Assembly: GCA_021793495.1 (NCBI GenBank)
Contig: JAJYSQ010000002.1
Span: forward strand, 1-15,407
Reading direction: 5' to 3'
Length of the DNA: 15,407 nucleotides
DNA from: Actinomycetes bacterium
GTDB lineage: Bacteria > Actinomycetota > Actinomycetes > JAJYSQ01
This document shows, in pieces, positions 902 to 15,333 of the stretch. The notes below the pieces were generated by a model. That model ran no database searches and was not told where the DNA came from. It saw nothing but the letters and a program-made list of their open reading frames with translations. A program made the position numbers and the translations under genes. Within the stretch, counting starts at the first letter, position 1. Each line of letters begins with the position of its first letter.

Positions 902-3574
902 CTAGGCGACCAGGGCCTGGGCCGGCTGGTGGGTGGCGGTGACCTGGTGCCGGCCGCTGCCGATCCGGGCCTGCACGCTGCCGTCCGCAGCGGTGCTGAG
1001 CTCGCTGTCCAGACCGGTGACCGAGTCGGCGTCCGTGGTCGGCAGGGACAGCACCGCCTCGGTACCCGGCGGGATCTCCACGTCCAGGGTGAAGGTCTCC
1101 CCGGTGAGCTGCCAGCTGGTGGCCACCCGGCCCAGCGGGGTCTCCACCGCCGCCGAGGCCCGGCTGACCCCAGCACCCGGGCGAGGCCGGATGAGCACCT
1201 CACGGTACGCCGTCGACCCGGGGGCTTGGTCGATCCCACCGAGGCAGGCGTAGATCCAGTCCACCACCGCGCCCAGGCTGTAGTGGTTGAAGGAGTTCAT
1301 CGTCACCGACTGGAACCCGCCCTCGGGGGTCCACCCGTCCCAGCGTTCCCAGATGGTGGTGGCCCCGTGCCGGATCGGGAACAGCCAGCTCGGGTACTCC
1401 TCCTGCACCAGCAGCGCGTGCGCCAGGTCGTCCTGCCCGTGCTCGCTGAGCACCCGGCAGATCTTGGAGACGCCGACGAACCCGGTGGTCAGTCGGTTGC
1501 CCGCCTCCCGGACCAGCTCGACCAGTCGCGCCACCGCTGCCGGCACCGCCTCGGCCGGCAGCAGGTCGTAGTCCAGGGCGAGCAGGTAGCAGGTCTGGGT
1601 GTCCGAGGTGATCACCGTACCGTCGACGAACTCGCGGTTGAACGCAGCGCGGATCTGGTCCGCGAGCGCCGTGTACTCCGCCTCCTCGCCCGCGTGGCCG
1701 AGGATGGCGGCGGCACGCGCCACCAGGGAGGCGGAGTTCGCGAAGTAGGCGGTGGCCAGCACGGCACGGTCGGTCTCCGGACCCACGTGCAGCCAGTCGC
1801 CGTAGTTCGACCCGACCCGCTTGCGCCAGATCAGGTCCGGGTTCGCCCGGCGCACGTGCTCCACCCAGCGGACCATCGCCGGGAAGCTGCGCTGCAGCTG
1901 GCGGCGGTCGCCATACAGGTCGAACAGCGCCATCGGGATGATCACCCCGGCATCACCCCAGGCGGGTGCCCCCTCACCCATCCACGGCCCGGCGGGGGCG
2001 ATGTCGCCGAACGCGCCGTCGGTGCTCTGTCCGCCGACCACGTCCACCATCCAGCTGGCGAAGAACGCGGACACGTCGCACAGCCGCGCCGAGGTGGGCA
2101 GGAACACCTGGGCGTCGGCGAGCCAGCCGAGCCGCTCGTCGCGCTGCGGGCAGTCGGTGGGGATGGACAGGAAGTTGCCCCGCTGGCTCCACCGGGTGTT
2201 GGAGACGATCTGCAGCACGTCCGGGTTGTCGCAGTCGAAGCTGCCGGTGGTCTCCAGGTCGCTGCTGACCACCATCGCGGTGACGTCCTCGGCCGCCGGC
2301 GCCTGGTCCAGCCCGGCGATCCGCACGTACCGGAAGCCGTGGAAGGTGAACCGTGGTTCGAACACCTCGGTGGCCGCACCGCGCGGGTAGTACAGGTCGC
2401 GGGCCTCGGCGCGGCGGAGGTTCTCGGTGTACAGGCGGCCGTCGGCGTCCAGGGTCTCGCCGTGGGTGAGCTCGACCAGCTGGCCCGCCTCCGGCTGGTG
2501 CAGCCGCAGCCGCACGTGGCCGACCAGGTTCTGGCCGAAGTCCACCAGCCAGGCGTCCGACCCGGGTTCGGGCAGGATCTGCGCCGGGGTGAGCTCGGCG
2601 ACGGTGCGCACCGGCGGCGCGGTGGAGCCGGTCACCGTGGCGGTGTCATCACCTAGCGCCCGGGCGCGGCGCCAGCCGGAGTCGTCGAAGCCGCCCAGCT
2701 CCCAGCCGACCGGCCGCTGCCGGGCATCCACCCCCTCGCCCATCAGCAGGTCCGCATAGAGCCACTCGCCGGCGGACTCCCGCCAGGTGTCGTCGGTGCA
2801 GATCACCTCGGTGGCGCCGTCCGCGGCGACCAGGTGCAGCTCGGCCAGCAGTGCCGGGGCGTCCCCGTAGAGCCGGCCGGCGTTGCGCGGGTCGTAGCCG
2901 ACGAAGCCGCTCCACCAGCCGTCCGCGAGCACCACGGCCAGCACGTTCTCCCCGGCCTGGACGGCGGTGGTCACGTCGTAGGTCTGGTAGTGGATGCGGC
3001 GCCGGTAGTCGGTCCAGCCCGGGTTCAGTGTGCTGTCCCCGACCGGCTGGCCGTTCAGCTGTGCCTCGTACAGGCCCCGAGCGGTGATGTGCAACCGGGC
3101 GGAGACGACCTGTCGGCGCGGGGTGAAGGTGGTGCGCAGCAGCGACGGCGGGTTCAGCGGACGGCTGTTCCAGGTAAGGTCGTCGTCCACCGGCGCCAGG
3201 AACGCGGACCGGTCCCGGCTGTCCCTGCCGATCCAACGAGCCTCCCACGGGCGGTCCAGCCGACCGGTCTCGAACCAGGACCGGGTGGGCTGGGTGGGCT
3301 GGTCCTGCTCGTCCCACACCTCCAGCGCCCACTCGTAGCGGGTGTAGGGCTGCAGCGCGGGGCCCGCGTAGCAGATCTCCAGCTGCTCCGCCGAGGCCAC
3401 CTTGCCGGTGTCCCAGGTCTGCTGCCCGGCAGTGACCACCAGGCGGTAGGCACTCTGCCGGGCACCGTTTCGTAGGCTGCGCAGTCGCCAGGCGAACCGC
3501 GGACGCTCCTCGTCCAACCCCAAGGGGGTGGCGAGGTGCTCGACACGCAGGGCATAGGGCTCGAGGCTGGTCAT
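902..3574 (-). CDS. Alpha-L-rhamnosidase, GH78
   Basis: An 890-residue protein of full GH78 length. It hydrolyses terminal alpha-L-rhamnose from oligosaccharides or glycosides by an inverting mechanism (family knowledge). The N-terminal 420 residues look like the beta-sandwich domains of the family. The (alpha/alpha)6 catalytic domain follows, with the hallmark DCPQRDERLGW at 474-484, where Glu480 is the expected general acid. TIWERWDGW lies near 740-748, with Glu743 as the expected base. A C-terminal beta domain ends the protein. There is no signal peptide or membrane segment, so it should act in the cytoplasm on imported oligosaccharides. The ATG overlaps the GH2 stop (ATGA, 3571-3574), implying translational coupling. 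A GAGAAG-like ribosome site lies within the end of the GH2 gene. It is the last gene of the leftward operon, ending at the hairpin at 811-893. Confidence 0.93.
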   Translation of the reverse strand: MTSLEPYALRVEHLATPLGLDEERPRFAWRLRSLRNGARQSAYRLVVTAGQQTWDTGKVASAEQLEICYAGPALQPYTRYEWALEVWDEQDQPTQPTRSWFETGRLDRPWEARWIGRDSRDRSAFLAPVDDDLTWNSRPLNPPSLLRTTFTPRRQVVSARLHITARGLYEAQLNGQPVGDSTLNPGWTDYRRRIHYQTYDVTTAVQAGENVLAVVLADGWWSGFVGYDPRNAGRLYGDAPALLAELHLVAADGATEVICTDDTWRESAGEWLYADLLMGEGVDARQRPVGWELGGFDDSGWRRARALGDDTATVTGSTAPPVRTVAELTPAQILPEPGSDAWLVDFGQNLVGHVRLRLHQPEAGQLVELTHGETLDADGRLYTENLRRAEARDLYYPRGAATEVFEPRFTFHGFRYVRIAGLDQAPAAEDVTAMVVSSDLETTGSFDCDNPDVLQIVSNTRWSQRGNFLSIPTDCPQRDERLGWLADAQVFLPTSARLCDVSAFFASWMVDVVGGQSTDGAFGDIAPAGPWMGEGAPAWGDAGVIIPMALFDLYGDRRQLQRSFPAMVRWVEHVRRANPDLIWRKRVGSNYGDWLHVGPETDRAVLATAYFANSASLVARAAAILGHAGEEAEYTALADQIRAAFNREFVDGTVITSDTQTCYLLALDYDLLPAEAVPAAVARLVELVREAGNRLTTGFVGVSKICRVLSEHGQDDLAHALLVQEEYPSWLFPIRHGATTIWERWDGWTPEGGFQSVTMNSFNHYSLGAVVDWIYACLGGIDQAPGSTAYREVLIRPRPGAGVSRASAAVETPLGRVATSWQLTGETFTLDVEIPPGTEAVLSLPTTDADSVTGLDSELSTAADGSVQARIGSGRHQVTATHQPAQALVA

Positions 3575-6500
3575 CGGTCACTCTTCTCTTGCTCGTGATC
3601 GGTCTCAGCGGTGGTGAACACCACCGCGAACGTGGTCGGTTCCGGGGTGATGCGGTAACGGGCCGGGGTGGCCGGTCCGCAGGAGGAGCTGCCCAGCCCG
3701 TGCTGCGCATGGTCCAGGTGCAGGTAGATGCGGTCCTCAGGGTGCAGCTCGAAGGCGGCGATCGCTTCTTCGAGGGCTTCGTCGGACCACCGGCGCGCGC
3801 TGAAGTCGATGGTCGGGTCGCCCTGCACCCGCAGTGCCGGCAAGGAGCCGCCGGCCAGCTCCAGCCAGCGGGTGCGGTGCCGGTTTCCGGCCTCCTGCGG
3901 CACGACGTAGCGGAAGTCGAGGTCGTCGATCCGGCTCTGGTACCGGCCCACCCGGGTGGCAGCGTGGCTGTCCCGGTAGCTCTCCCCCGGGCCGAGCCCG
4001 AACCAGGTGACCCGGTCCAGCTCGGCAGGCAGCTCCAGCCGCACCCCGAGCCGGGGCAGGGTGAGGTGGTGGTGCCCGATCGGGGTGTCCCGCCACGGCC
4101 CGTACGGTGTGACGTCCACCTGCAACCGGGCAGCGGGCGCTCCCACCTGCGTGGTCTCGGTCCAGGTGTAGACCACGTCCAGGCCGAAGGACTGGGTCGG
4201 CGGCGCCATCCGCGCGCTGACCTGCAGTCCGCCTGCGGTGGGTCGCACGTCGGTGACCCGGTGGCGCATCTGGTCCAGTCCGACGGCGCGCCAGCCCTCG
4301 GCCAGGTTGTTCAGCTCTCCCTGGCCTCGGTCGTTCTCGGTGGGTGCTCGCCAGATGTGCACACCGAAGCCCTGCACGGCCAGGCCGCCCAGGTCCCGCA
4401 GGGTCCCCGTGGCCGCGTCCAGCACTGCCGGCCCGATGCGCACCTCGCCGGCCGGGGCGGGGTCGGCACCGGGCGGCTGGGCTGCGGGTGGGGTGGTCGG
4501 CTGGCTCGCTGGCTCGGTCACCGGGTCGAGTCGCCCCTGACCCCAGGCCACCTCGTGGCCGGCCGCTGCCCACGGGGCCGGTTCGGCCAGCCGAGCGGAG
4601 ACTGTCAACCACACCTCTCCGGCATCCTCGGCGACGTCCGGCAGGTCGGGCAACGGCACGCGCACCTGGTCGCCGGCGTCGGTCACGGGCACCTCCAGCA
4701 GCCCGGTGGCCAGCACCTGTCCGTCCTGGCTGAGCTCCCAGGAGAAGTCCAGGTGCGCAGTGTCGAGCACGTCGTAGGCGTTGCGCACCAGCACCCGCTG
4801 GTCATCGATGTCGATACGGACCGGCTCGATCACCTTCGCCAGCTCGAGCAGGCCGGGTGAGGGGACCCGGTCCGGGCGCACCAGACCATCGAGGCAGTAG
4901 CTGCCCCCGTTGGGGCGGTAGTCGAACCGGCCGCCGTGCCAGAAGCCGTCGCTGCCGTCCGGTTCGGTGCGGCGGATGCCGTGGTCGATCCACTCCCACA
5001 CGAACGCTCCGGCCATCCGGTCGGAGGACTCCAGGATCTCCTGGTAGTCCGCCAGGGACCCGGGCCCGTTGCCCATCGCGTGCGCGTACTCGCAGAGCAG
5101 GAACGGCAAGGCGCGCCGGCGTTCTTCCAGCTCCGGCTGGTCGGCCAACGCCTCCGAGGGCGCCTCGGTGCGCTGTGCGATCGCCTGCAGATCGTCCAGG
5201 GACGGGTACATCAGCGAGTAGAAGTCGGACTGGGCGTAGGTGCGGTCGCGCTCGTAGTGCAGCGGTCGGCTCGGGTCCCGCTCACGGATCCAGCGCTCGA
5301 TGGCCACGAAGCCGCTCCCGCCCTCGCTCTCGTTCGCCAGGGACCAGATGATCACCGACGGGTGGTTCTTGTCCCGTTCCACCATCCGGGCGGTGCGGTC
5401 CAGCAGCGCCGGCTCCCAGGCCGGGTCGTCCACCGGGTTGCCCTCCCAACCGGCGTAGATGAACCCGTGCGTCTCCAGGTCGCCCTCGTCCACGACCCAC
5501 AGGCCGAGCTCGTCGCACAGCCGGAGGAACTCCGGGTGCGGCGGGTAGTGCGCAGTGCGTACCGCGTTGATGTTGTGCTGCTTCATCAGCAGGATGTCCT
5601 GGCGCATCGTCTCCGGGCTGAGCGCCCGGCCGTGGTCCGGGTCGTGCTCGTGCCGGTTCACCCCGCGCAGGTGGATACGTCGACCGTTCACCCGCAGCAC
5701 ACCGTCGGCCACGCTGACGGTGCGAAAGCCCACTGCCAGGTCGACCGTCTCCTGGCCGACCTGCACGGTACCGCGGTAGAGCCGGGGCACCTCGGCGCTC
5801 CACGGCTGCACGGTCTCGATCCGGTGCTCGGTGCCGGTGGGCACGTCGACGAGGTCGAGCTCCGGGATGCTCACCCGGCCCTGCAGCGCAGCACCGGTCG
5901 GTCCGGTGGTCTCCACGCGGAGGGTGCCTGCGCCGGTGTGGTGGTCGTAGTCGGCGTGGACGAACAGGTCGTCCAGCGCCCCCTCAGGCCGCTCCAGCAG
6001 CTCCACGTCCCGGAAGATCCCGGGCAGCCACCACATGTCCTGGTCCTCCAGGTAGCTGCCGGAGGACCAGCGGTGCACCCGCACGCAGAGCACGTTGCCG
6101 CGCTGCCGGAGCACGTCGCCCACGTCCAGCTCGAACGGCAGCCGGCTGCCCTTGGAGTGACCGAGCTCTGTACCGTTCAGCCACACCTGGGCACAGGAGT
6201 CCACACCCTGGAAGCGCAGCACACTGCCGGTGGTGCGCCACCCTGCCGGAAGGTCGAAGGTGCGCCGGTAGTCCCCGGTGGGGTTGTCCGTGGGGGTGTA
6301 GGGCGGATCGATCGGGAACGGGAAGGCGGTGTTGGTGTAGCGGGGGACGTCGTGGCCGCGCAGCACCCAGTGCGACGGGACGTCGATCCGCCCCCAGGTG
6401 GAGTCGTCCAGGTCGGGGTCGGGGAACTGAGGCCCGGTGCCGGCGGCGGTCGGGACCAGCTCGAACGCCCAGTCTCCGTTCAGGCTCAGCCGGTTGGCGT

Positions 6501-6630
6501 CCGAGGTGAAGTCCGCGCGCGGGCGCCGGCGACCGGCTCCGGGCACCGGATCGTCGTAGTACTGCAATGAGCTCGAGTCCAATCGTCGTTCAGGGTCGTC
6601 GGTCACCCATGGTTCGGGTCGGTCGGTCAC
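3571..6630 (-). CDS. GH2 beta-galactosidase, LacZ-like
   Basis: A 1019-residue protein matching the five-domain LacZ architecture: sugar-binding domain (about 50-205), immunoglobulin-like domain, TIM barrel (about 305-600), a second beta domain, and the small-chain domain (about 730-1010). The acid/base motif is SLANESE with Glu434; the nucleophile motif is LLCEYAHAMGNG with Glu514. RAPTENDRG (761-769) and WFGLGPGESYRD (876-887) mark the small-chain domain. A Pro/Ala/Thr-rich linker (about 703-727) precedes it and is a local oddity. No signal peptide, so intracellular; it probably removes terminal beta-galactose, though GH2 also includes arabinopyranosidases and glucuronidases. The start is GTG at 6630, 12 bases after the reductase stop. 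No clear ribosome site is visible, and a second in-frame GTG at 6606 lies in a duplicated 24-bp unit, so the start is uncertain by 8 codons. Confidence 0.92.
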   Translation of the reverse strand: MTDRPEPWVTDDPERRLDSSSLQYYDDPVPGAGRRRPRADFTSDANRLSLNGDWAFELVPTAAGTGPQFPDPDLDDSTWGRIDVPSHWVLRGHDVPRYTNTAFPFPIDPPYTPTDNPTGDYRRTFDLPAGWRTTGSVLRFQGVDSCAQVWLNGTELGHSKGSRLPFELDVGDVLRQRGNVLCVRVHRWSSGSYLEDQDMWWLPGIFRDVELLERPEGALDDLFVHADYDHHTGAGTLRVETTGPTGAALQGRVSIPELDLVDVPTGTEHRIETVQPWSAEVPRLYRGTVQVGQETVDLAVGFRTVSVADGVLRVNGRRIHLRGVNRHEHDPDHGRALSPETMRQDILLMKQHNINAVRTAHYPPHPEFLRLCDELGLWVVDEGDLETHGFIYAGWEGNPVDDPAWEPALLDRTARMVERDKNHPSVIIWSLANESEGGSGFVAIERWIRERDPSRPLHYERDRTYAQSDFYSLMYPSLDDLQAIAQRTEAPSEALADQPELEERRRALPFLLCEYAHAMGNGPGSLADYQEILESSDRMAGAFVWEWIDHGIRRTEPDGSDGFWHGGRFDYRPNGGSYCLDGLVRPDRVPSPGLLELAKVIEPVRIDIDDQRVLVRNAYDVLDTAHLDFSWELSQDGQVLATGLLEVPVTDAGDQVRVPLPDLPDVAEDAGEVWLTVSARLAEPAPWAAAGHEVAWGQGRLDPVTEPASQPTTPPAAQPPGADPAPAGEVRIGPAVLDAATGTLRDLGGLAVQGFGVHIWRAPTENDRGQGELNNLAEGWRAVGLDQMRHRVTDVRPTAGGLQVSARMAPPTQSFGLDVVYTWTETTQVGAPAARLQVDVTPYGPWRDTPIGHHHLTLPRLGVRLELPAELDRVTWFGLGPGESYRDSHAATRVGRYQSRIDDLDFRYVVPQEAGNRHRTRWLELAGGSLPALRVQGDPTIDFSARRWSDEALEEAIAAFELHPEDRIYLHLDHAQHGLGSSSCGPATPARYRITPEPTTFAVVFTTAETDHEQEKSDR

Positions 6631-6648
6631 CCGTCGTGCGGGTCAGTC
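6601..6648. repeat. Imperfect 24-bp tandem repeat across the reductase/GH2 junction
   Basis: Bases 6601-6624 and 6625-6648 are two adjacent 24-base units that both begin GGTCACCC and end in GGGTC(A/G)GTC, matching at about 20 of 24 positions. A third partial copy begins at 6649 (GGTCAC). The repeat covers the stop of the aldo/keto reductase and the GTG start of the GH2 gene, duplicating the GTG-ACC-GAC start context. This leaves two equivalent in-frame GTG codons 24 bases apart. Confidence 0.75.
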
Positions 6649-7551
6649 GGTCACGGTCGTGGGTGGCGTGCCGAGGCTCTCCAGCTCGGGCCAGACCTCG
6701 GCGGGGGTCTCCACGGCCAGCAGTGCGTCCAGCTCGGCCAACCGGGCCGCGGTGCCGGCGCCCACCACCGTGGAGGAGACGACCTGCGACCGGGTGGAGA
6801 ACGCGAGCGCCACGGCGGCGAGCGACACACCGTGCCGGGCGCAGACCCTGCTGGCCCGGTGGACCCAGTCGAGCAGCTCCTCCGGTGCCGGCCGGTAGGC
6901 GTAGCGGGCGTCCGCGCCGGCCCGCTCTGCGGCGGCGAGCAGACCCCCGCCGTAGGGCGCAGCGTTGAACACCACCATGTCCCGCCGACGGGCTGCCTCG
7001 AACAGGTCTGCTGCGGAGGAGTCCACGAGCGTGTACCGGTTGTGGCTGAGCACTGCGTCGAAGACGTCGGTCTGCACGTACTGCCGGATCAGGCTCGAGG
7101 GCCCTGCGGCCACGCCGATCGCGCCCACGGCGCCCTGCTCGCGCAGCTCCACCAGGCCCTGGACGGCGCCACCGGGCGCCATCGCCTCCTCGAACGTGAT
7201 CGTGTACGGGTCGTGCAGCTGGTAGAGCGGCAGGGTGTCCAGGCCGAGGCGGGAGGTGGACTCCTCGAAGGAACGCAGCACCCGGTCCCGGTCGAAGACG
7301 CCGGTGGCCAGGTCGCGGTCCGCCTTGGAGATCACCTGGACGCCTTCCGGCAGCCCACCCAGGTCGGCGATGGCCTGCCCGAGCACCTGCTCGCTGCGTC
7401 CCTCGTCATAGGCGTTCGAGGTGTCGACCAGCCGGTGCTGGGAGGTCAGCAACGATCGCGCTGTGGCGACAGCATCGGGCCGGTCCCCCAGTCCGGAGGT
7501 GCCCAGCGTGACGACGGAGGGCGCCAGCAGCGCCTCAACCCTTGACTGCAC
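6643..7551 (-). CDS. Aldo/keto reductase, sugar dehydrogenase-like
   Basis: A 302-residue aldo/keto reductase with the full catalytic tetrad visible: Asp43 and Tyr48 (VDTSNAY), Lys76 (VISKAD) and His113 (YQLHDP). The NAAPYGGGLLA segment (196-206) resembles the L-fucose / L-galactose / D-threo-aldose 1-dehydrogenase subgroup, so NAD(P)-linked oxidation or reduction of a released monosaccharide is likely; the sugar itself is inferred only. No signal peptide. The only usable start is GTG at 7551, because an in-frame stop (TGA) lies 15 bases upstream. An AAAGGA ribosome site sits 12-17 bases before it. The start overlaps by 17 bases the end of an ABC permease remnant, which once probably provided translational coupling. 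It is the first gene of the compact set reductase, GH2, GH78. Confidence 0.88.
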   Translation of the reverse strand: MQSRVEALLAPSVVTLGTSGLGDRPDAVATARSLLTSQHRLVDTSNAYDEGRSEQVLGQAIADLGGLPEGVQVISKADRDLATGVFDRDRVLRSFEESTSRLGLDTLPLYQLHDPYTITFEEAMAPGGAVQGLVELREQGAVGAIGVAAGPSSLIRQYVQTDVFDAVLSHNRYTLVDSSAADLFEAARRRDMVVFNAAPYGGGLLAAAERAGADARYAYRPAPEELLDWVHRASRVCARHGVSLAAVALAFSTRSQVVSSTVVGAGTAARLAELDALLAVETPAEVWPELESLGTPPTTVTD

Positions 7552-7651
7552 CGGAAGCCAGTCCTTTCATGATCTTCTGGCTGAAGAACAGGAACACGAT
7601 CACTGTCCCGAACACGTTGAGCGAGGCTGCCGCGAACAGCGGCCCGTGCTG
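7535..7651 (-). pseudogene. C-terminal remnant of a MalG-type sugar ABC transporter permease
   Basis: Reading the minus strand from 7651 to the TGA at 7535-7537 gives 38 residues that include GPLFAAASLNVFGTVIVF, then FFSQKIMKGLASGAVKG at the end. This matches the last membrane helix and the characteristic tail (F-Q-x-x-hydrophobic-x-KG-x-x-x-GAVKG) of carbohydrate ABC permeases of the MalG/LplC type. Upstream, the frame stays open only to a stop at 7718-7720, and residues before about 7651 do not look like a permease. No start codon, binding-protein dependent motif or other helices remain. The stop overlaps the reductase GTG, as expected for the last gene of a former transporter operon. It is therefore a truncated relic, cut off by the block carrying the GH140 and Opp genes. 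Confidence 0.78.
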
Positions 7652-7721
7652 CAGCCCACGTCCGGACCGCCTCCAGCTGACGTACCGCTGCCACCGGTGC
7701 GTCTGCTGGTGGCGGCCTCAG

Positions 7722-9248
7722 TCAGTTCCACGGAGCGGGACTGGTGCCAGGCTTGTCGAAGCCCATGTCGGTGTCGTCCAGGACGAGCACCCAGTCGTTT
7801 CCCTCCTCGATGGCCCCCGGTGGGTCGAAGGTCTGCACGCCTCGGTTGGTCCTGGTCCCGGCGGCCCGCGAGTTCCCGTTTCGGGTGTTGTACCACCACA
7901 CCTTCACCCGGGTACCAGAGATGTGTCCCATCTCGAGCGAGAACGGACGTCCGGTATAGCTGTAGGCGAAGAGGTACGCGTCGCCTCGGGTAGTCAGGAT
8001 CCGGTCGTAGCGCCAGCCGGCGTCACCGGACACGATCGACGGGTCGTAGATGCGGCTGTAGTACGGGCGGGACAACACCAGGTTCTTCAGGTGCTGGAGC
8101 TGACGAGCGCCGGGATCATCCAGCGCCTCATACCAGTACTTGCGTACCCCGTACCCATTCACCGGCCCGTCAGACTCGACGTGCATCGGCATCACAGCAC
8201 CGTTGCCGTACGAGTGTCCGCAGGCGCCGGCGAAGACCGCCCAGTAGGCGTACCGTCGCACGTCCTTGGGCTTCCAGAACGGCTGATCGGTGTCATGCAG
8301 GCCCTGCGGGACACGTTCGTAGCTCGGCTCGCCGTCCAGTGTCGGTTTGGGCGGCCACAGCTTGAAGTCTTCGAGCACGAGCTTCCAGTTGTCCTCGCCC
8401 TTCCACAGCGTCGGCAGCTGAACTCCCGTCTCCTCGGTGCCGATCTCCTCGAACGCCTGGGCATAGGTCCGGTGGCCGGACTGAAACATGTTGAAGTCCA
8501 GCCAGTCGGCCTGGTGGAACCAGGTCGCCGACGAATAGCGCCCGAACGGGTGGAACGTCATCAGGTGGTCCGGGTCCCGTTCCCGCACTGCCTGCGCCAA
8601 CGTCGTCCACACCTCCAGCCGCTCGTGCGCGATCGAGTCACCGCCGATCAGCCAGACGATGTTCGGGTGCGCCCGGTAGCGTTCGGCGATCCAGCGCCCG
8701 TAGCGCTCTGCACCGGCGACGCTCAGGGATCCGCCCTTGACGACGGCGTTCCAGACGGCATCCAGACCCATGTAGATGCCGTACTGCCCTGCCACCTCCA
8801 CCATCGTGTCGACATGTTCCCAGTAGGGCTCGTTGGGCTGAGCCATGTCCTCGTCGATGAAGGGTGTCTCGCCGTAGTAGTTCTTGAACGCAAGACTCGC
8901 TGGGACCACCTGGAGAAGGGCGACATTGAAGCCCTTGTCATGACGGTCGCTGAAATAGGTGTGCAGCTCGTCTGCGGACAGCTTGTGCAGCAACCACGGC
9001 GTATCCGCCAGCCAGAAGAACGGTGTGCCGTCCTCGTGCTGGAAGAATCGACCGTCCTCGGTCACCTGGACCGGCCCGTGCTCCTCCCACGGCGGGACGT
9101 AGTCGTCCGACCCTGGCTCTGCAGCCATCGCCCCGGTGCCTGAGAACGCGACCGATCCCGCCCATGTTGCCGCGCCCGCAGCGAGCACTCCACGTCGGGT
9201 CATGGTCGCCCGACCACCGGCTCCCGAAACCTCCGTCGCCATCGTCAT
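7722..9248 (-). CDS. Tat-exported GH140-type glycosidase (apiosidase-like, DUF4038 family)
   Basis: A 508-residue protein with a twin-arginine signal: MTRRGVLAAGAA with Arg18-Arg19, a hydrophobic stretch, and a probable cleavage after AMA near residue 42. It is therefore exported folded. The mature part has the DUF4038 TIM-barrel pattern: FFWLADTPWLLHKLS (77-91), NIVWLIGGD with Asp204 as the likely acid/base, and DGEPSYE with Glu307 as the likely nucleophile. A C-terminal beta domain of the type annotated as a collagenase collagen-binding domain follows (about 410-500). The founding GH140 enzyme, from Bacteroides thetaiotaomicron, cleaves apiose linkages in rhamnogalacturonan II; extending that activity here is inference. 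ATG 9248 has a GAGAGGGG ribosome site; ATG 9242 is also possible. It lies 30 bases after the binding-protein stop, so it belongs to the transporter operon. Confidence 0.82.
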   Translation of the reverse strand: MTMATEVSGAGGRATMTRRGVLAAGAATWAGSVAFSGTGAMAAEPGSDDYVPPWEEHGPVQVTEDGRFFQHEDGTPFFWLADTPWLLHKLSADELHTYFSDRHDKGFNVALLQVVPASLAFKNYYGETPFIDEDMAQPNEPYWEHVDTMVEVAGQYGIYMGLDAVWNAVVKGGSLSVAGAERYGRWIAERYRAHPNIVWLIGGDSIAHERLEVWTTLAQAVRERDPDHLMTFHPFGRYSSATWFHQADWLDFNMFQSGHRTYAQAFEEIGTEETGVQLPTLWKGEDNWKLVLEDFKLWPPKPTLDGEPSYERVPQGLHDTDQPFWKPKDVRRYAYWAVFAGACGHSYGNGAVMPMHVESDGPVNGYGVRKYWYEALDDPGARQLQHLKNLVLSRPYYSRIYDPSIVSGDAGWRYDRILTTRGDAYLFAYSYTGRPFSLEMGHISGTRVKVWWYNTRNGNSRAAGTRTNRGVQTFDPPGAIEEGNDWVLVLDDTDMGFDKPGTSPAPWN

Positions 9249-9278
9249 ACCCCTCTCTTCCGACTCGCAGCCCGGTGG

Positions 9279-10943
9279 CTACTGACCTTCAGTTGGTGTC
9301 AAGTTCTGGATCGTGATCGTGGCGTCCACCGGTTGGGTGATGTGCGGGATGTAGGTGGCGCTCTCCGGGTCCGGCCAGCCAGACCACTGCGTCGAGTTCA
9401 CATCGACGAAATAGGCTGCTGAGTGCAGCGGCGCAAACGGCACCTCGTCGACGATGATGTTCGCGACCTCGGCGACGTCCTCCCTCAGCTCCGCTTCGTC
9501 CAGCGTCTGCGACATGTCATCGAGCAGCTGATCGACCGTCTCGTTCTCGTACCGGCCCTGGTTCGCGATGGCGGCCGTTCCGATCGGCTCCACGAAGCTG
9601 CTGTTCAGCTGGGCGTTCAGGCTCGCCCACACGTCATCCCCGCTGAGCAGGTACTGCTGGATCATCTGGAACTCGCCGTTGTTCAGGTCGCGCTGCCACT
9701 GCTGTCCCGGGATCGAGTCGATCTCCACGTCCAGTCCGAGCACCTCGTTCCACTGGTCCTGCATCGCAGGACCGAACAGGTTCCAGCCGTTGTCGTCTGA
9801 GTTGGTGGTCAACGTCAGCGGGTAGCTCTCGCCGTCCTTCGTCAGGTTGCCGTCCTCGACCGTGTAGCCACTGGCTTCGAGCTCAGCAACGGCCAGCTCG
9901 GCATCCTGCTCGTGGCGCACGTCGGCAAGATCATCAGGGAGCAGGGACCCCCAGGTGTCACCGTCCAGGCCGGTCGGGTTGGCCGACGCGGTGCCCACGT
10001 TGTTCAACAGGGAGAGCTGGTCGCTGTCGATCGCGGCGTACAGGGCTCTGCGGACATGCACATCTGTGGTCGGCCCCTCTTGCATGTTGAAGAGCATCCC
10101 GGTCGAGAATCCGGCCGGATACACCCAGTAGTGGTTGTGCTCGGGGTCGGAACCAACGAAGTTGTCCTCATAGTTCTGCCACGACATACCAGCCCAGTCC
10201 GCCTCGTTCTTGAGGATCATCTGCTTCCCTGAGTCGTCAGAGGCGAACGGCTTGACCTGCACATACTCCACCCCGTTGAACTCCCCGTTCCAGTACGAGT
10301 CGCGAACCTCGAACCTGATGAGCTGGGGACTGAAGGAGTCCAGGGTGAAGGCCCCGGTAGAGACCGGATCCTCGTTGGTCCACTGCACCGGGTCCTCCTC
10401 CTCCCACACATGCTTCGGCACGATGGCACGAGGAATCTGTCCGTAGTTCGCCAGGTCGTGGTACTGCGGCTCGGAGTAGTGGACGATGACCGTGTGCTCA
10501 TCGGGCGTCTCGATGGAGTCGAGATCGGGGATCGGGGCAACGGCCAGTCCCTCGACCGTCGTCGGCAGCTCCAGGGTGTACTTGACGTCTTCAGACGTGA
10601 ACGGCTCACCATCGCTCCAGGTCACGTCCTGGCGAAGGTTGAACGTCAGCGTCCTGCCGTCCTCAGAGAAGTCGAAAGACTCGGCCAGCCAGGGCTCGAC
10701 CTTCATCGCATCAGCCCGGTTGACACGCACCAGCGGCTCGTAGACGAGGTTCATCAACGGGCTCTTGTTCGCCGCCGGCGAGAACGGGTTGAAGTTCTGC
10801 ACATACGAGGTCGCCCCACCCATCGCGAGGGTGACCGTGTCGACCGTGTCAGCATCCGTCTCACGGGTGCGTTCGGTCGAACAGGCGGCTGCGCTGGCGC
10901 TCAGGGCGAGCGCCAGGGCGGCGGCGATGATTCGCTTCTTCAT
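9279..10943 (-). CDS. Family 5 extracellular substrate-binding lipoprotein of the ABC transporter
   Basis: A 554-residue protein starting MKKRIIAAALALAL with a lipobox (AAAC, Cys21), so it is a surface lipoprotein. Its length and motifs fit the SBP_bac_5 family (DppA/OppA type): the LVYEPLVR segment, the LTFNLRQDVTWSDGEPFTSEDV region, the STGAFTL segment, and VRRALYAAIDSDQL in the second lobe. The family binds peptides, nickel or oligosaccharides; adjacency to a GH140 enzyme and glycosidases favours oligosaccharides (inference). The open frame extends 15 codons upstream, but ATG 10943 is chosen because AGGAGA lies 6 bases before it and the signal peptide begins there. The gap to the upstream ATPase gene is 10 bases. 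The binding protein is fifth in the operon instead of first, which is less common. Confidence 0.92.
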   Translation of the reverse strand: MKKRIIAAALALALSASAAACSTERTRETDADTVDTVTLAMGGATSYVQNFNPFSPAANKSPLMNLVYEPLVRVNRADAMKVEPWLAESFDFSEDGRTLTFNLRQDVTWSDGEPFTSEDVKYTLELPTTVEGLAVAPIPDLDSIETPDEHTVIVHYSEPQYHDLANYGQIPRAIVPKHVWEEEDPVQWTNEDPVSTGAFTLDSFSPQLIRFEVRDSYWNGEFNGVEYVQVKPFASDDSGKQMILKNEADWAGMSWQNYEDNFVGSDPEHNHYWVYPAGFSTGMLFNMQEGPTTDVHVRRALYAAIDSDQLSLLNNVGTASANPTGLDGDTWGSLLPDDLADVRHEQDAELAVAELEASGYTVEDGNLTKDGESYPLTLTTNSDDNGWNLFGPAMQDQWNEVLGLDVEIDSIPGQQWQRDLNNGEFQMIQQYLLSGDDVWASLNAQLNSSFVEPIGTAAIANQGRYENETVDQLLDDMSQTLDEAELREDVAEVANIIVDEVPFAPLHSAAYFVDVNSTQWSGWPDPESATYIPHITQPVDATITIQNLTPTEGQ

Positions 10944-10953
10944 AGGTGTTCTC

Positions 10954-11973
10954 CTAGGACTCAGTCGTGGGCTGCGGGCGCTCTGCATGGAGCCAGCAAT
11001 GGGTCCAGTGCCCGTTCCCTAGCTCGGAACGCTTGGGAAACTCGGTCTTGCAGATGTCCATCGCGAATGGGCAACGCAGGTGGAACCGGCAACCGGCCGG
11101 CGGATCGGCAAGGTTCGGCGGCTCACCCAGATCACCCGATCCCTCCGCACTCAGTGCGGACTCGGGATCGGGCGAAGCATCGATCAGCAGCTTGGTGTAC
11201 GGGTGCTGTGGGTCTTGGATCACCGACTCGACCGGACCACCTTCGACGGTCTGCCCGGCGTACATCACCTGCACCGTGTTCGCCAGGTAGCGGGCGCTGG
11301 CGATGTCGTGGGTGATGTAGAGCATGGCGAGATCCTCTTCGTCGCGGAGACGACGGAGCAGGTTCAGGATGTCGAGCCGGATGGAGACGTCCAGCATCGA
11401 GATCGGCTCATCGGCCAACAACACCTCGGGGTCGACCGCCAGCGCCCTCGCGATCACCAACCGCTGGCGCTGTCCACCGGACAGCTGGTGCGGGTAGGCG
11501 TCGATCAGGTCCGCGGCCGGGGTGAGGTTGACCCGTTCCATCAGCTCGAGCATGCGCTGCTCGAGCTCCTCACGGCCGTTGAACGTGTGGTGCAGCTTGA
11601 GCGCTCGTTCGAGAGCGTGCCGGACCGACTTCTGCGGGTTCAGGGCACCGAACGGGTCTTGGAAGATCAGCTGGACTCGGCTGTAGTACTCCCGGTCAGC
11701 GAACTCGTGCTTGGTCCGGACGGGTTCACCGTCCAGCCGGATCTGCCCTGAGGTGAGCGGGTAGAACTGCGCCAGGAGCCTGGCCAGCGTGGTCTTGCCG
11801 CTCCCCGACTCCCCCACCAGCGCCACGATCTGCCCCCGGCGCAGCTGGAGCGTTGCGTCCTCGACGGCGTGGATCGTTGTGTCACGGCCCAACCCACCGC
11901 TGATCTCGAAGTGCTTGGTGACGTGATCGGCCTCCAGCACCACGTCTGCCGCTGACGACTGCGTCGGACTCAT
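10954..11973 (-). CDS. Opp/Dpp-type ABC transporter ATPase, F subunit
   Basis: A 339-residue nucleotide-binding subunit with Walker A GESGSGKTT (54-62, Lys60), Q-loop Gln105 (LIFQDP), signature LSGGQ (164-168), Walker B VLLADEP (184-190), D-loop SMLDVS and H-loop His222 (YITHD). The C-terminal oligopeptide/dipeptide-transporter extension carries four cysteines (295, 301, 308, 326), the usual spacing for the 4Fe-4S-like cluster of this subfamily. It pairs with the D-subunit ATPase to energise the two permeases. The ATG overlaps the upstream stop (ATGA, 11970-11973), with a strong GGAGGAGA ribosome site 8-9 bases before it. All motifs are intact. Confidence 0.94.
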   Translation of the reverse strand: MSPTQSSAADVVLEADHVTKHFEISGGLGRDTTIHAVEDATLQLRRGQIVALVGESGSGKTTLARLLAQFYPLTSGQIRLDGEPVRTKHEFADREYYSRVQLIFQDPFGALNPQKSVRHALERALKLHHTFNGREELEQRMLELMERVNLTPAADLIDAYPHQLSGGQRQRLVIARALAVDPEVLLADEPISMLDVSIRLDILNLLRRLRDEEDLAMLYITHDIASARYLANTVQVMYAGQTVEGGPVESVIQDPQHPYTKLLIDASPDPESALSAEGSGDLGEPPNLADPPAGCRFHLRCPFAMDICKTEFPKRSELGNGHWTHCWLHAERPQPTTES

Positions 11974-13031
11974 CGGCTGATCTCCTCCTGCGGGGTGGTG
12001 TGCAGATGGCAGGCCACCCGCCGGCCATCGATGGGCAACAGCTCAGGTAGGACCGAGTCGCACTGCTCGAGCCGCTGAGGACAGCGCGGATGGAAGGGGC
12101 AGCCGGACGGAGGGTTCCTCAGGTCCGGCGGGTTCCCGGAGATGCCGGACAGCTCTCCCATCGGCGCGTGCAGTGAGGGGAAGGCGTCCCGGAGCCCTCT
12201 CGTGTACGGATGGAACGGGTTGCGATAGATCTGGTCGGAGACGGCTTCCTCGACGATCCTGCCCGCATACATGATCGCGATCCGGTCCGCGAGCTGCACC
12301 AGCAACGACAGGTCGTGGGTGACGAAGACGACCGCAAATCCGAGCCGGTCCTGCAGGCTGAGCAGCTGCGTGAGGATCTGCCGCTGCATCACGACGTCAA
12401 CGGCTGTGGTGGGCTCGTCCATGACGACCACACGCGGATCGCAGGCCAGCGCCAGGGCGATGAGCGAACGCTGCCGCATCCCGCCCGACAGCTGGTGCGG
12501 ATAGCTACGCGCGCGATCGGCGGGCACCCCGACCAGCTGCAGCAGCTCGGCGGTGCGTTCCTTGACTGCCTGCCGCCGGATCCCGGGCCGGTGTGCGCGC
12601 AACGTGTCAGCGAACTGGTCGCCCAGACGCATCACGGGGTTCATGCAGTCCATGGCCGACTGCATGACGATCGCGATCTCGTTCCAGCGCAGACGCCGGA
12701 GCTCACCATCGGTCATCGTGGTGAGCTCGACCGGCTCGTGGCCGGGCGAGTGGTAGAGGATGGAGCCTGCCGTCGTGACCGCTGGTGGGCGTTGGAGCCG
12801 GGTCAGCGCAGTGATCAGGGTGGACTTGCCCGAACCCGACTCACCCGCGATGCCGACGATCTCCCGTTCGTGCACCGTCAGATCAACTCCGTTGCAGGAG
12901 CGGACGGGCCCGTTGGCGGTCAGGTAGTCGACCGTCAGCCCGCTGACCTCCAGCACCGGCCCACCACGGCGGCGTGCCGGGCGCTGTCGATCGTCAGCAG
13001 ACCCAGGGCTCTCGATCAGTGGTGCACTCAT
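11970..13031 (-). CDS. Opp/Dpp-type ABC transporter ATPase, D subunit
   Basis: A 353-residue nucleotide-binding subunit with Walker A GESGSGKST (63-71, Lys69), signature LSGGM (181-185), Walker B VVVMDEP (201-207) and H-loop His239 (FVTHD). The D-loop reads TTAVDVVMQ instead of the common TTALDVTVQ, a modest deviation. The C-terminal family extension has the NPPSGCPFHPRCP segment with cysteines 311, 317, 324 and 341. The first 24 residues are a polar, Arg-rich tail not found in most relatives. The ATG overlaps the permease C stop by 4 bases (13028-13031), and its own stop overlaps the F-subunit ATG, so the two ATPases are probably made in fixed ratio. Confidence 0.94.
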   Translation of the reverse strand: MSAPLIESPGSADDRQRPARRRGGPVLEVSGLTVDYLTANGPVRSCNGVDLTVHEREIVGIAGESGSGKSTLITALTRLQRPPAVTTAGSILYHSPGHEPVELTTMTDGELRRLRWNEIAIVMQSAMDCMNPVMRLGDQFADTLRAHRPGIRRQAVKERTAELLQLVGVPADRARSYPHQLSGGMRQRSLIALALACDPRVVVMDEPTTAVDVVMQRQILTQLLSLQDRLGFAVVFVTHDLSLLVQLADRIAIMYAGRIVEEAVSDQIYRNPFHPYTRGLRDAFPSLHAPMGELSGISGNPPDLRNPPSGCPFHPRCPQRLEQCDSVLPELLPIDGRRVACHLHTTPQEEISR

Positions 13032-13978
13032 CCGACCATCACTCTTCCTGCGGCGTCCTTCTGGGCAGCTGCCTCGGTCTTCTTGAGGTGCGCTCTACGG
13101 CGCGCCTTGTCGAACTTGCGGACGAGCTTGCGCTCCTTGCCCTGCAAGCGCGGATTGCTCAGCTCATCGATACCGAAGTTGATCAGCGCTGTTGCGGTGC
13201 CGATGAGTGCGAGGCACAAGCCAGGCGGCAGGTACCACCACCAATATCCGAGCCGGATCGCGGACTGGTTGCGGGAGTCCTCGATCATCGTTCCCCAGCT
13301 GATGGTGTCAGCACTGATACCGAGGAATGCCAGGCCCGCTTCTGCCATGATTCCCGCGACCATCGCGCGGAGGAACAGGGCCGAGATGATCCCGGTCAGG
13401 TGCGGCAGGATCTCGGAGAAGATCAGCCGGCTGCGCGTCTCGCCCAAGACACGCATCGCGAGGGCGAAGTCCCTGGTGCGCAAGGACAGGGTCTGCGAGC
13501 GCAGGTAGCGCGCGCCCCCGGGCCACTCGAAGATGCCGATGAGGAACGCCACCACCATCCACGTCACGCCCTGGACGTAGCCAGCCACGATCAGGATCAG
13601 GGCGAAGCTCGGCATGGTGATGAACAGGTTGGTGAACATCGTCAGCAGCTGGTCGGTGCGGCCGCCCAAGAACCCGCCGGTGACCCCGACCAGGATGGCC
13701 AGCACCGTTGCCAGCACCGCCGAGGTGACGCCGACAGCGACACTGCTGCGGGCACCCACGATGACCTGGGAGAGCACATCCTGGCCATTGTTGGTCGTCC
13801 CGAGCGGGTGCCGCCCACCCGGGGGCTGGTGCAGAGCGTCGTAGTCGATCGCCTCGGCGGGCATGCCCAGGACGTGGTCGACGAACCAGGGCCCGAACAG
13901 CGCCACCACCAGGAACACGGCGAGAATGATCAGACCAGCACGGACGCGACCTGATCGCAGCAGGCGTCTCATCGACAT
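13028..13978 (-). CDS. Opp/Dpp-type ABC transporter permease, C subunit
   Basis: A 316-residue inner-membrane permease. A first helix (about 14-31) is followed by the OppC-type external loop HPLGTTNNGQDVLSQVIVGAR (HPLGT at about 57-61) and then five more hydrophobic segments. The cytoplasmic EAA loop reads as FALAMRVLGETRSRLIFSEILPH, near residues 171-193. A 40-residue basic tail (RLQGKERKLVRKFDKARRR) extends past the last helix. The frame allows a GTG at 13987, but AGGGAG then lies only 1 base away; ATG 13978 has it about 10 bases upstream, and ATG 13972 is also possible. The gene sits one base beyond the permease B stop. Confidence 0.92.
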   Translation of the reverse strand: MSMRRLLRSGRVRAGLIILAVFLVVALFGPWFVDHVLGMPAEAIDYDALHQPPGGRHPLGTTNNGQDVLSQVIVGARSSVAVGVTSAVLATVLAILVGVTGGFLGGRTDQLLTMFTNLFITMPSFALILIVAGYVQGVTWMVVAFLIGIFEWPGGARYLRSQTLSLRTRDFALAMRVLGETRSRLIFSEILPHLTGIISALFLRAMVAGIMAEAGLAFLGISADTISWGTMIEDSRNQSAIRLGYWWWYLPPGLCLALIGTATALINFGIDELSNPRLQGKERKLVRKFDKARRRAHLKKTEAAAQKDAAGRVMVG

Positions 13979-13979
13979 C

Positions 13980-15077
13980 TCAGGCACTCTCCCTGGTGCG
14001 CGGATCGAGCAGCACGTACAACGAGTCCGCGATGAAGTTGGCAGCCAGCGTGGTGAGGGTGATCATCAGGAACACCGTCTGCATGACCGGGAAGTCGTGG
14101 GCACCGATCGCCTTCAGCAGCAGGAATCCCATACCGGGATAGGTGAACACGATCTCGGTCAGCAGCACACCGCTGATCACCCCACCGATGGACAGTGCCA
14201 GACCCGTCACATTCGGTAGCAATGCGTTGCGTGCGGCATATTTGAGCAGCACCCGCCTGCTGGACAGCCCCTTGGCATGCGCCAGCAGCACGTAGTCCTC
14301 GGCCACTGTGGTCACCATGACATTACGCATGGAGAAGAACCAGCCGTTGAATCCGACGAAGATCAACGTGATGGCTGGAAGAGCCCCGTACTTCAGGACA
14401 GACAACAGAAAGAAGATGTTGTTGATCTGGAACGGTACCGAGGAGTCGTATCCGCCGGAGAGTGGAAACCACCCCAGGACGAAGCCGAAGTACCACAGCG
14501 CCAGGAGCGCCAGCCAGAACGGTGGGACCGAGTGCAAGAACGTGGTGACAGGGGTGAAGATCGTGTCGATCCGGCTCCCCGGTCGCGCCCCGATCCACGC
14601 CCCGAGGAAGGTTCCGATCACCCACGAGACGAGCGTGGTCGCACCCACCAGGAGCACGGTCCACGGCAGCGCCTGTCCGACCAGCTCGGAGACCGGCGTC
14701 GGAAACTCGCTCAACGACGTGCCGAACCGGAAGTTGGCGATGTCGACCCAGTACTGCAGGTACTGCCCCAGGAGATTCTCGCTCGGGTCACCGTAGAAGG
14801 TCTGGATCGCCGCGATCTGGTCCGGCGTCGGCGTCTGCCCGGTCTGCTGCCGAAGATTCTGCAGGAGGTCCTGGGCCGGGTCGCCGGGGACGAACCTGGG
14901 AATCAGGAAGTTCAGGGTGATGGCAGCCCAGGCGGTGAACAGGTAGAAGCCCAACCGACGGGAGAGGAACCGCAGCGGGTTAGCTCGGGCACGTTGCGCC
15001 TTCCCAGGACGAGAAGCGGATGCGTCGCCTCCCGGCGACTTCACAGGCTTGACGGTCGAGGGCGAGTCGGTCGTCAT
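13980..15077 (-). CDS. Opp/Dpp-type ABC transporter permease, B subunit
   Basis: A 365-residue inner-membrane permease. A 40-residue polar, basic N-terminal stretch is followed by helix 1 (about 43-61) with the OppB hallmark FLIPRFVPGDP. Helices then follow near 137-163, 175-205, 222-250 and 290-312, with a last one near 333-350. The EAA loop is EDYVLLAHAKGLSSRRVLLKY (260-280). The open frame reaches 15326, but ATG 15077 is preferred: GGAG lies 7 bases upstream, the added residues look non-coding, and a short upstream ORF stops in TGATG overlap with this ATG. It is the first full gene of the leftward transporter-GH140 operon. Confidence 0.9.
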   Translation of the reverse strand: MTTDSPSTVKPVKSPGGDASASRPGKAQRARANPLRFLSRRLGFYLFTAWAAITLNFLIPRFVPGDPAQDLLQNLRQQTGQTPTPDQIAAIQTFYGDPSENLLGQYLQYWVDIANFRFGTSLSEFPTPVSELVGQALPWTVLLVGATTLVSWVIGTFLGAWIGARPGSRIDTIFTPVTTFLHSVPPFWLALLALWYFGFVLGWFPLSGGYDSSVPFQINNIFFLLSVLKYGALPAITLIFVGFNGWFFSMRNVMVTTVAEDYVLLAHAKGLSSRRVLLKYAARNALLPNVTGLALSIGGVISGVLLTEIVFTYPGMGFLLLKAIGAHDFPVMQTVFLMITLTTLAANFIADSLYVLLDPRTRESA

Positions 15078-15139
15078 CAACGCACTCCGACCCACTGAGC
15101 CACAACGGCGCAGTCGATCCGGGTCGGGATGAGCGCCAT
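15077..15139 (-). CDS. Short upstream ORF overlapping the permease B start, possible leader peptide
   Basis: A 20-codon ORF starts at ATG 15139, with AGGA 5 bases upstream. It reads MALIPTRIDCAVVAQ and then WVGVR, and its TGA shares the A of the permease ATG (TGATG). The frame also permits a longer 47-codon version from ATG 15220, behind GGGGTGAGAG, with a Pro-rich start. Such overlaps usually signal translational coupling. The peptide has one Cys and one Trp but no run of a single regulated amino acid, so attenuation is not evident. It could also be a chance ORF; I do not recognise a family. Confidence 0.4.
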   Translation of the reverse strand: MALIPTRIDCAVVAQWVGVR

Positions 15140-15333
15140 CGGGTTCCTGTCCGTGCTCGGCACGGGCCTGACTGGTTCCGGAGGTGCTGCCACAGCGGGC
15201 AGCGGGGGCGCCTGCGTCATCTCTCACCCCAGTTCCTGGTCTGCACCGTCGCCAAGTCCTCTCGTTGGTTGATGGGCCGTGGCCGCTGCCGCCGTTGGTG
15301 GCCAACTGTGCGCCAAAGGACCGCATCGTCTGG

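Follow-up and report, generated by a model that had tools for sequence, protein, structure and literature searches.

A remnant of a CUT1-type sugar permease at the start of an aldo/keto reductase gene in an actinomycete contig

One of the questions raised by this locus is the nature of a short minus-strand reading frame that runs into the start of an aldo/keto reductase (AKR) gene, where a block of AKR and glycosidase genes meets a GH140 gene and an Opp-type transporter. Is it the relic of a lost sugar transporter? Why would this piece in particular have been kept? And did the transporter that now lies upstream take over from the lost one? The window, i.e. the whole stretch of DNA analysed (15,407 nucleotides), is an entire contig of a 453-contig MAG that is 81% complete, and contains the following features:

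902..3574, minus strand: GH78 alpha-L-rhamnosidase (Pfam); overlaps GH2 by 4 bases
3571..6630, minus strand: GH2, beta-galactosidase type, downstream of AKR (Pfam; also after AKR in Occultella)
6643..7551, minus strand: AKR, PF00248, 302 aa, GTG start within the permease tail (Pfam and open reading frame)
7549..7569, minus strand: AKR translation start region, with stop TGA at 7569-7567, Shine-Dalgarno-like GAAAGGAC at 7568-7561 and GTG at 7551-7549 (sequence)
7535..7651, minus strand: msmG remnant (CUT1 permease), last 39 codons and TGA, equivalent to residues 263-301 of the intact permease (protein and DNA homology, synteny of relatives)
7652..7721, minus strand: spacer of 70 bases that separates the GH140 stop from the first codon recognisable as permease (no related sequence found)
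7722..9248, minus strand: GH140 apiosidase-like protein, PF13204 and PF12904, first gene upstream of the stub (Pfam)
9279..10988, minus strand: SBP_bac_5 binding protein of an Opp-type transporter (Pfam); translation may instead begin about 15 codons further in, at MKK
10954..15020, minus strand: OppF, OppD, OppC and OppB of the same Opp-type transporter (names by resemblance)

Lpl, Msm and Opp are family names, assigned by resemblance. The four-base overlap between GH2 and GH78 (3571-3574) is a further case of tight coupling within the same gene set. The window gave no Rfam match at gathering scores, no match in the plasmid collection and no tRNA.

Identity and extent of the permease tail

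The initial annotation had read positions 7535-7651 of the minus strand as a 38-residue, MalG-type permease C-terminus. The frame is open from 7717 to 7538 and closed by TGA at 7537-7535, giving 60 codons with the translation GRHQQTHRWQRYVSWRRSGRGLQHGPLFAAASLNVFGTVIVFLFFSQKIMKGLASGAVKG, whose C-terminal part is ...GLQHGPLFAAASLNVFGTVIVFLFFSQKIMKGLASGAVKG. Its last 39 residues align with residues 263-301 of a 301-residue Occultella permease at 72% identity (E 2.6e-17, for a search of two short stretches), and DNA similarity starts at about 7647 (80 bases, 82.5% to the Pseudactinotalea locus L026). The coordinates first given were thus right to within a few bases, and the assignment, now to the C-terminus of an MsmG/MalG-type CUT1 permease, was borne out by the protein search; the length has to be revised to 39 residues by alignment, within an open frame of 60 codons. 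Relatives of this permease are named 'raffinose/stachyose/melibiose transport system permease protein' in one source.

No Pfam match was found at E<=1 in the 60-codon frame. The PF00528 match of the intact Occultella permease stops at residue 284, so that 17 of the 39 stub residues lie beyond this domain. The full-length PF00528 membrane domain of a functional CUT1 permease is absent from the frame, as are, from the window, the msmE- and msmF-type partner genes of a functional CUT1 transporter. Compared with MsmG/MalG-type CUT1 permeases (PF00528), the stub shares the 39 C-terminal residues, the KGLASGAVKG-like ending of the family and the position relative to AKR, but lacks the other 262 residues and both partners, msmE and msmF. 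Homology and position together identify it as a genuine relic of such a permease. Chance similarity was ruled out, as intact relatives have the same tail at the same position relative to the orthologous AKR.

Upstream, the permease has no recognisable continuation, as had been stated: positions 7652-7721 gave no match better than E 0.6 in 11 loci of relatives and a best other match of E 0.03 in the genome itself, and the GH140 gene ends at 7722. Elsewhere in the same genome, a GH78-like stretch (locus L002, contig C256; 37% to the GH78 of the window) is directly preceded by a second CUT1-type permease end, with 41% identity to the stub over 34 residues; the genome hence has another permease-GH78 pair.

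The intact operon and a second scar in relatives

A scan for AKR loci over genome contigs, from which the best 80 of 362 were kept, shows how often the two genes are associated. A permease of the stub type ends within 1.5 kb upstream of AKR in 10 of these best 80 loci, nine of which also have GH2 downstream of AKR, and no such permease is found upstream in the other 70 of the best 80 (of 362), so that AKR is generally independent of an upstream permease. In the two Occultella loci (L025 and L028), the end of the intact permease and the AKR start share 17 bases, exactly as with the stub, and in two Pseudactinotalea loci (L026 and L027) the permease lies directly before AKR. The operon with binding protein, two permeases, reductase, GH2 and GH78, which the initial annotation had proposed to look for in relatives, is present in Occultella L025: a binding protein gene (PF01547), two permease genes (PF00528), AKR, GH2 and GH78. 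Upstream of this msm operon lie an opposite-strand glycosidase gene and then LplB-, LplC- and LplA-like genes, and further on downstream of GH78 is a racemase gene on the opposite strand. The counterpart of the glycosidase in L024, a locus described below, matches PF14498; no Pfam match was obtained for the two LplA-like proteins scanned, and the LplC-like protein of L024 stayed below the cut-off.

AKR itself is found at E<=1e-20 in 14 of 60 relatives' genomes (own included), and among 23 loci, own stretches included, a tail against AKR was found in the window's own stretches only. At E<=1e-75, 10 of 393 genomes of the class (own included) carry AKR, and L158 is the only one of the other nine with the tail; it is not an independent case, because its permease is identical to that of L025. 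Among named proteins, the AKR of the window is nearest to those of Ruania and Occultella, and a tree of 24 AKRs places it with L024 and P0001-P0007 and separates it from Occultella (support 0.91). An intact 301-residue permease, P0125, has 36 of the 39 tail residues of the window.

A second stub was found before AKR in L024, a 6.1 kb contig of Candidatus Ruania gallistercoris. Collinearity of this contig with Occultella extends over 4.9 kb (79% DNA identity), as far as the LplA end, and resumes at the permease tail to continue across AKR; upstream of the stub, an LplB-LplC-LplA transporter lies in the same order as in Occultella. The contig lacks msmE, msmF and most of msmG; what is left is the msmE promoter motif, the msmG tail and 44 bases from the middle of msmG (86% identity, E 9e-9), which are joined directly to the tail. 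In L025 numbering, the deletion comprises about 3.1 kb (about 6683-9781) and 112 bases (9826-9937). In the genome of this species, the best-scoring match to the permease reaches 34% and that to the binding protein 29%, so that neither search gave an orthologue.

The L024 promoter motif (TTGACA, 18 bases, TACGAT, at 4962-4991) now stands directly before the tail and AKR, suggesting that the former msmE promoter drives AKR in this species. A conserved element, GCATATCYATTCA-N5-GCACA-NAN-TTGACAG, lies upstream of msmE at 6627-6682 in L025 and from 6649 in L028, and upstream of the stub at 4936-4991 in L024; it is probably a promoter with an operator. With up to three mismatches and over seven genomes, the msmE promoter motif was found a single time in each of three genomes, that of R. 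gallistercoris and those of the two Occultella; it is absent from the other four, including that of the window, and a reversed control gave none. The matches in the three genomes are by construction, because the pattern was built from these three sequences; what the search adds is that the motif occurs once per genome and is absent elsewhere among the seven.

Searching proteins with the L024 stub gave three proteins from three candidates. P0121 (40 aa) is the L024 form; P0122 (51 aa) starts from residue 251, and P0123 (48 aa) has a permease part from residue 278 behind a different N-terminus, the positions in these last two being set by eye and the two forms known from their protein sequences alone. 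P0122 and P0123 could be odd gene calls. The four tail-only forms (window, L024/P0121, P0122 and P0123) all retain at least residues 278-301, with the frame open.

Origin and retention of the stub

Why was the tail kept when the rest of the transporter was lost? In the window, AKR, read from the GTG at 7551, shares 17 bases with the stub, confirming the overlap noticed initially. The AKR frame of both the window and L024 has an in-frame stop 18 bases before this GTG and no ATG, GTG, TTG or CTG between the two; the stretch from the GTG to the conserved GTSGLG motif is likewise free of ATG, GTG and TTG (CTG being left out of this second count). The only ATG/GTG/TTG start of AKR therefore sits in the remnant. 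A Shine-Dalgarno-like site, GAAGGGAC, also precedes the AKR GTG of L024. The best anti-Shine-Dalgarno duplex at the AKR GTG of the window has an energy of -5.6 kcal/mol, compared with -2.9 to -10.3 for seven other genes of the window. For the intact Occultella loci, the AKR start can be assigned less confidently, since both L025 and L028 have a further GTG at AKR codon 13 and L028 has an additional ATG and GTG upstream, at -96 and -108.

The overlap was read directly in DNA at four loci (window, L024, L025 and L028). AKR N-termini of the form MxS[RK][AV][ED] in P0001, P0002 and P0004-P0009 match what would be expected from an overlapping GA[VL]KG* tail. In P0003, an AKR relative with 76% identity, the ATG start is further upstream and the usual overlap residues, VQAPAE, do not fit a GAVKG* tail; in that lineage, a new AKR start perhaps freed the stub to decay.

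The explanation that we favour, with a probability of roughly 0.8, is that the stub is a deletion scar whose tail was kept since the AKR GTG and ribosome-binding site lie within it. The ancestral operon would have been msmE-msmF-msmG-AKR-GH2-GH78, with AKR translation initiated from within the last msmG codons. In the lineage of the window, msmE, msmF and most of msmG would have been deleted, and GH140 and the Opp-type transporter would have come to lie immediately before the remnant, in the same orientation. Presumably, the 39 codons at the end of msmG stayed because a longer deletion would have removed the AKR translation start, so that the overlap would set a natural end point for deletions. 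The remnant would now form the AKR leader in the mRNA, with translation from the GTG at 7551; a scan of 7400-9400 detected no promoter-like site, so AKR is presumably transcribed by read-through from the GH140/Opp genes. Within the stub, the same scan picked up a single terminator-like site, whose T run is poor, and two such sites were found in L024; a short hairpin with a weak T-rich tail occurs at the matching place in both stubs (window 7591-7609, L024 5038-5056).

Other routes to the present arrangement were considered. Insertion of a foreign block into msmG was rejected as the main reading, since the collinear L024 locus has undergone a plain deletion. A single simple deletion from GH140 to msmG starting from the Occultella gene order was also rejected. 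In that order, some 21 kb separate AKR from GH140, which lies upstream on the same strand with a gene of 685 or 690 aa and others after it, and no Opp match was found in L155, around the Occultella GH140; with such a distance, intervening genes and no Opp, the order of the window does not follow from one deletion.

Could the stub simply be a recent leftover under no constraint, the permease having been lost recently in each lineage and its tail not yet erased? We consider this unlikely. Between the window and L024, the stub has 75 of 81 bases in common, and 25 of its 27 codons, counting the stop, have the same meaning; for AKR, DNA identity is 77%, and none of its 268 segments of 27 codons reaches the stub's value. 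The last 24 codons, moreover, are common to the four tail-only forms with an open frame, and the window and L024 offer AKR no other ATG, GTG or TTG start. In favour of such a leftover, the tail is well conserved in the intact Occultella pair too (93.6% DNA identity, third positions 21/26), and codon identity in the stub is not clearly above codon bias: same-residue codons are identical in 20 of 24 cases, where 16.7 (AKR rates, P 0.07) or 19.2 (Opp rates, P 0.45) are expected. Before the Shine-Dalgarno site there are 14 same-residue codons, and all 14 are identical, against 11.2 (AKR, P 0.027) or 12.1 (Opp, P 0.11). As codon-corrected P values range from 0.027 to 0.45, depending on the codons and the reference, stub conservation falls short of establishing selection at the RNA level, and codon use accounts for much of it. 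Long neutral decay of the stub is unlikely, and a recent loss of the transporter after constraint at the protein level is possible. The shortest retained tail pieces extend 58 bases upstream of the GTG, beyond the strict need of a ribosome-binding site.

Two further readings appear far less probable. A translated small membrane protein with a role of its own (one hydrophobic helix and the permease C-terminal tail) would fit the predicted proteins of 40, 51 and 48 aa (P0121, P0122 and P0123, respectively) and the open frame of the four forms. However, the first ATG/GTG/TTG of the window frame is the GTG of NVF, inside the hydrophobic part, the N-terminal halves differ among forms, and the ATG predicted in L024 (4990) overlaps the -10 hexamer (4986-4991), so that from this promoter it would precede the start of the transcript; this makes such a protein highly improbable. 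A chimeric joining of two contigs during assembly is also very unlikely. It would be in line with the status of the window as a whole MAG contig, with the drop in GC from 0.72 to 0.64 across the junction and with the location of the Opp block elsewhere in R. gallistercoris. The orthologues in that species have the same GC values within 0.02 (Opp block 0.644 vs 0.641, GH140 0.646 vs 0.666, AKR 0.723 vs 0.720), thus the step is intrinsic. Furthermore, the assembly contains the junction DNA only once (the runner-up match covers 29 bases of the query at E 0.03), another assembly (L024) has a comparable stub, and the genes on the AKR and GH140 sides all share one orientation.

Beyond the deletion scar itself, it is tempting to regard the msmG tail in Ruania as a selectively maintained module, of which at least 24 codons would be kept at each transporter deletion, serving as AKR leader and as a plug-in site for the different blocks placed before it (GH140-Opp, or LplBCA together with the msmE promoter), overlapping starts thereby steering the cutting and rejoining of operons. 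We regard this extension as speculative and rather improbable.

Transporter loss, replacement and known parallels

The loss of an older CUT1 transporter, as originally proposed, agrees with the intact Occultella operon and with the searches of the 81% complete MAG, in which the MsmG-type permease and the binding protein were used as queries: the best-scoring of four permease matches has 35% identity, and the binding protein (MsmE) had no match at E<=1e-10. As the MAG is 81% complete, an intact transporter copy elsewhere in the genome is possible. The LplA-like protein had no match at E<=1e-15 in the same genome.

Was the lost transporter replaced by the Opp family, which would now serve the same enzymes (GH2 and GH78), as also suggested? 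The Opp-SBP5 block (9278-15147) has 87% DNA identity (about 90% at the amino acid level) to L153 of R. gallistercoris, where it has other neighbours and where the match stops at the end of SBP5. At E<=1e-20, GH140 is matched once in each of five out of six relatives' genomes, every time at a different place, with 58% identity in R. gallistercoris and 47-50% in the Occultella and Pseudactinotalea genomes. The genome behind L027, that of Pseudactinotalea suaedae, has a GH140 relative (L137, G063:C15:38468-39823) with one TAG in frame. Since the Opp block and GH140 lie elsewhere in relatives, the gene order of the window arose by rearrangement. Functional replacement would be in line with the position of Opp-SBP5-GH140 directly upstream of the stub in the same orientation, and with the lack of a CUT1 orthologue among the matches in the 81% complete genome. 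R. gallistercoris argues against it, having lost msmEFG with LplBCA next to AKR, upstream of the stub, and Opp elsewhere: loss of CUT1 does not need an adjacent Opp, which was already in the genus. Replacement thus did not hold up as first formulated, and we consider it doubtful.

The locus is a natural example of one and the same transporter having disappeared from at least two species, with a remnant left behind that leads into the overlapping start of the gene that follows, and its value lies in the scar being seen in two species and perhaps in four forms of the tail. Should the cause be confirmed, the end points of operon deletions would be predictable from overlapping starts, and tail stubs before intact genes could reveal former gene orders; gene callers have entered three such stubs as unnamed small proteins. 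In the open literature, judged by titles and abstract openings and including that on Ruania, Occultella and Ruaniaceae, nothing was found on this locus.

Two known systems are nevertheless comparable in part. In Buchnera, as outlined in PMC3164680, intergenic spacers derive from decaying pseudogenes, and signals such as Shine-Dalgarno sites stay conserved where genes are lost, as for the stub; that outline concerns a reduced symbiont genome, whereas the relatives considered here have genomes of 4.4 to 5.9 Mb, and here the start codon itself lies within the reading frame of the lost gene. Synthetic gene overlaps have been engineered to protect a gene, according to the summary of that work (PMC8528312), and similarly tie the fate of one gene's sequence to the function of another; at the present locus, in contrast, protection would cover the overlapped tail only, and not the whole gene.
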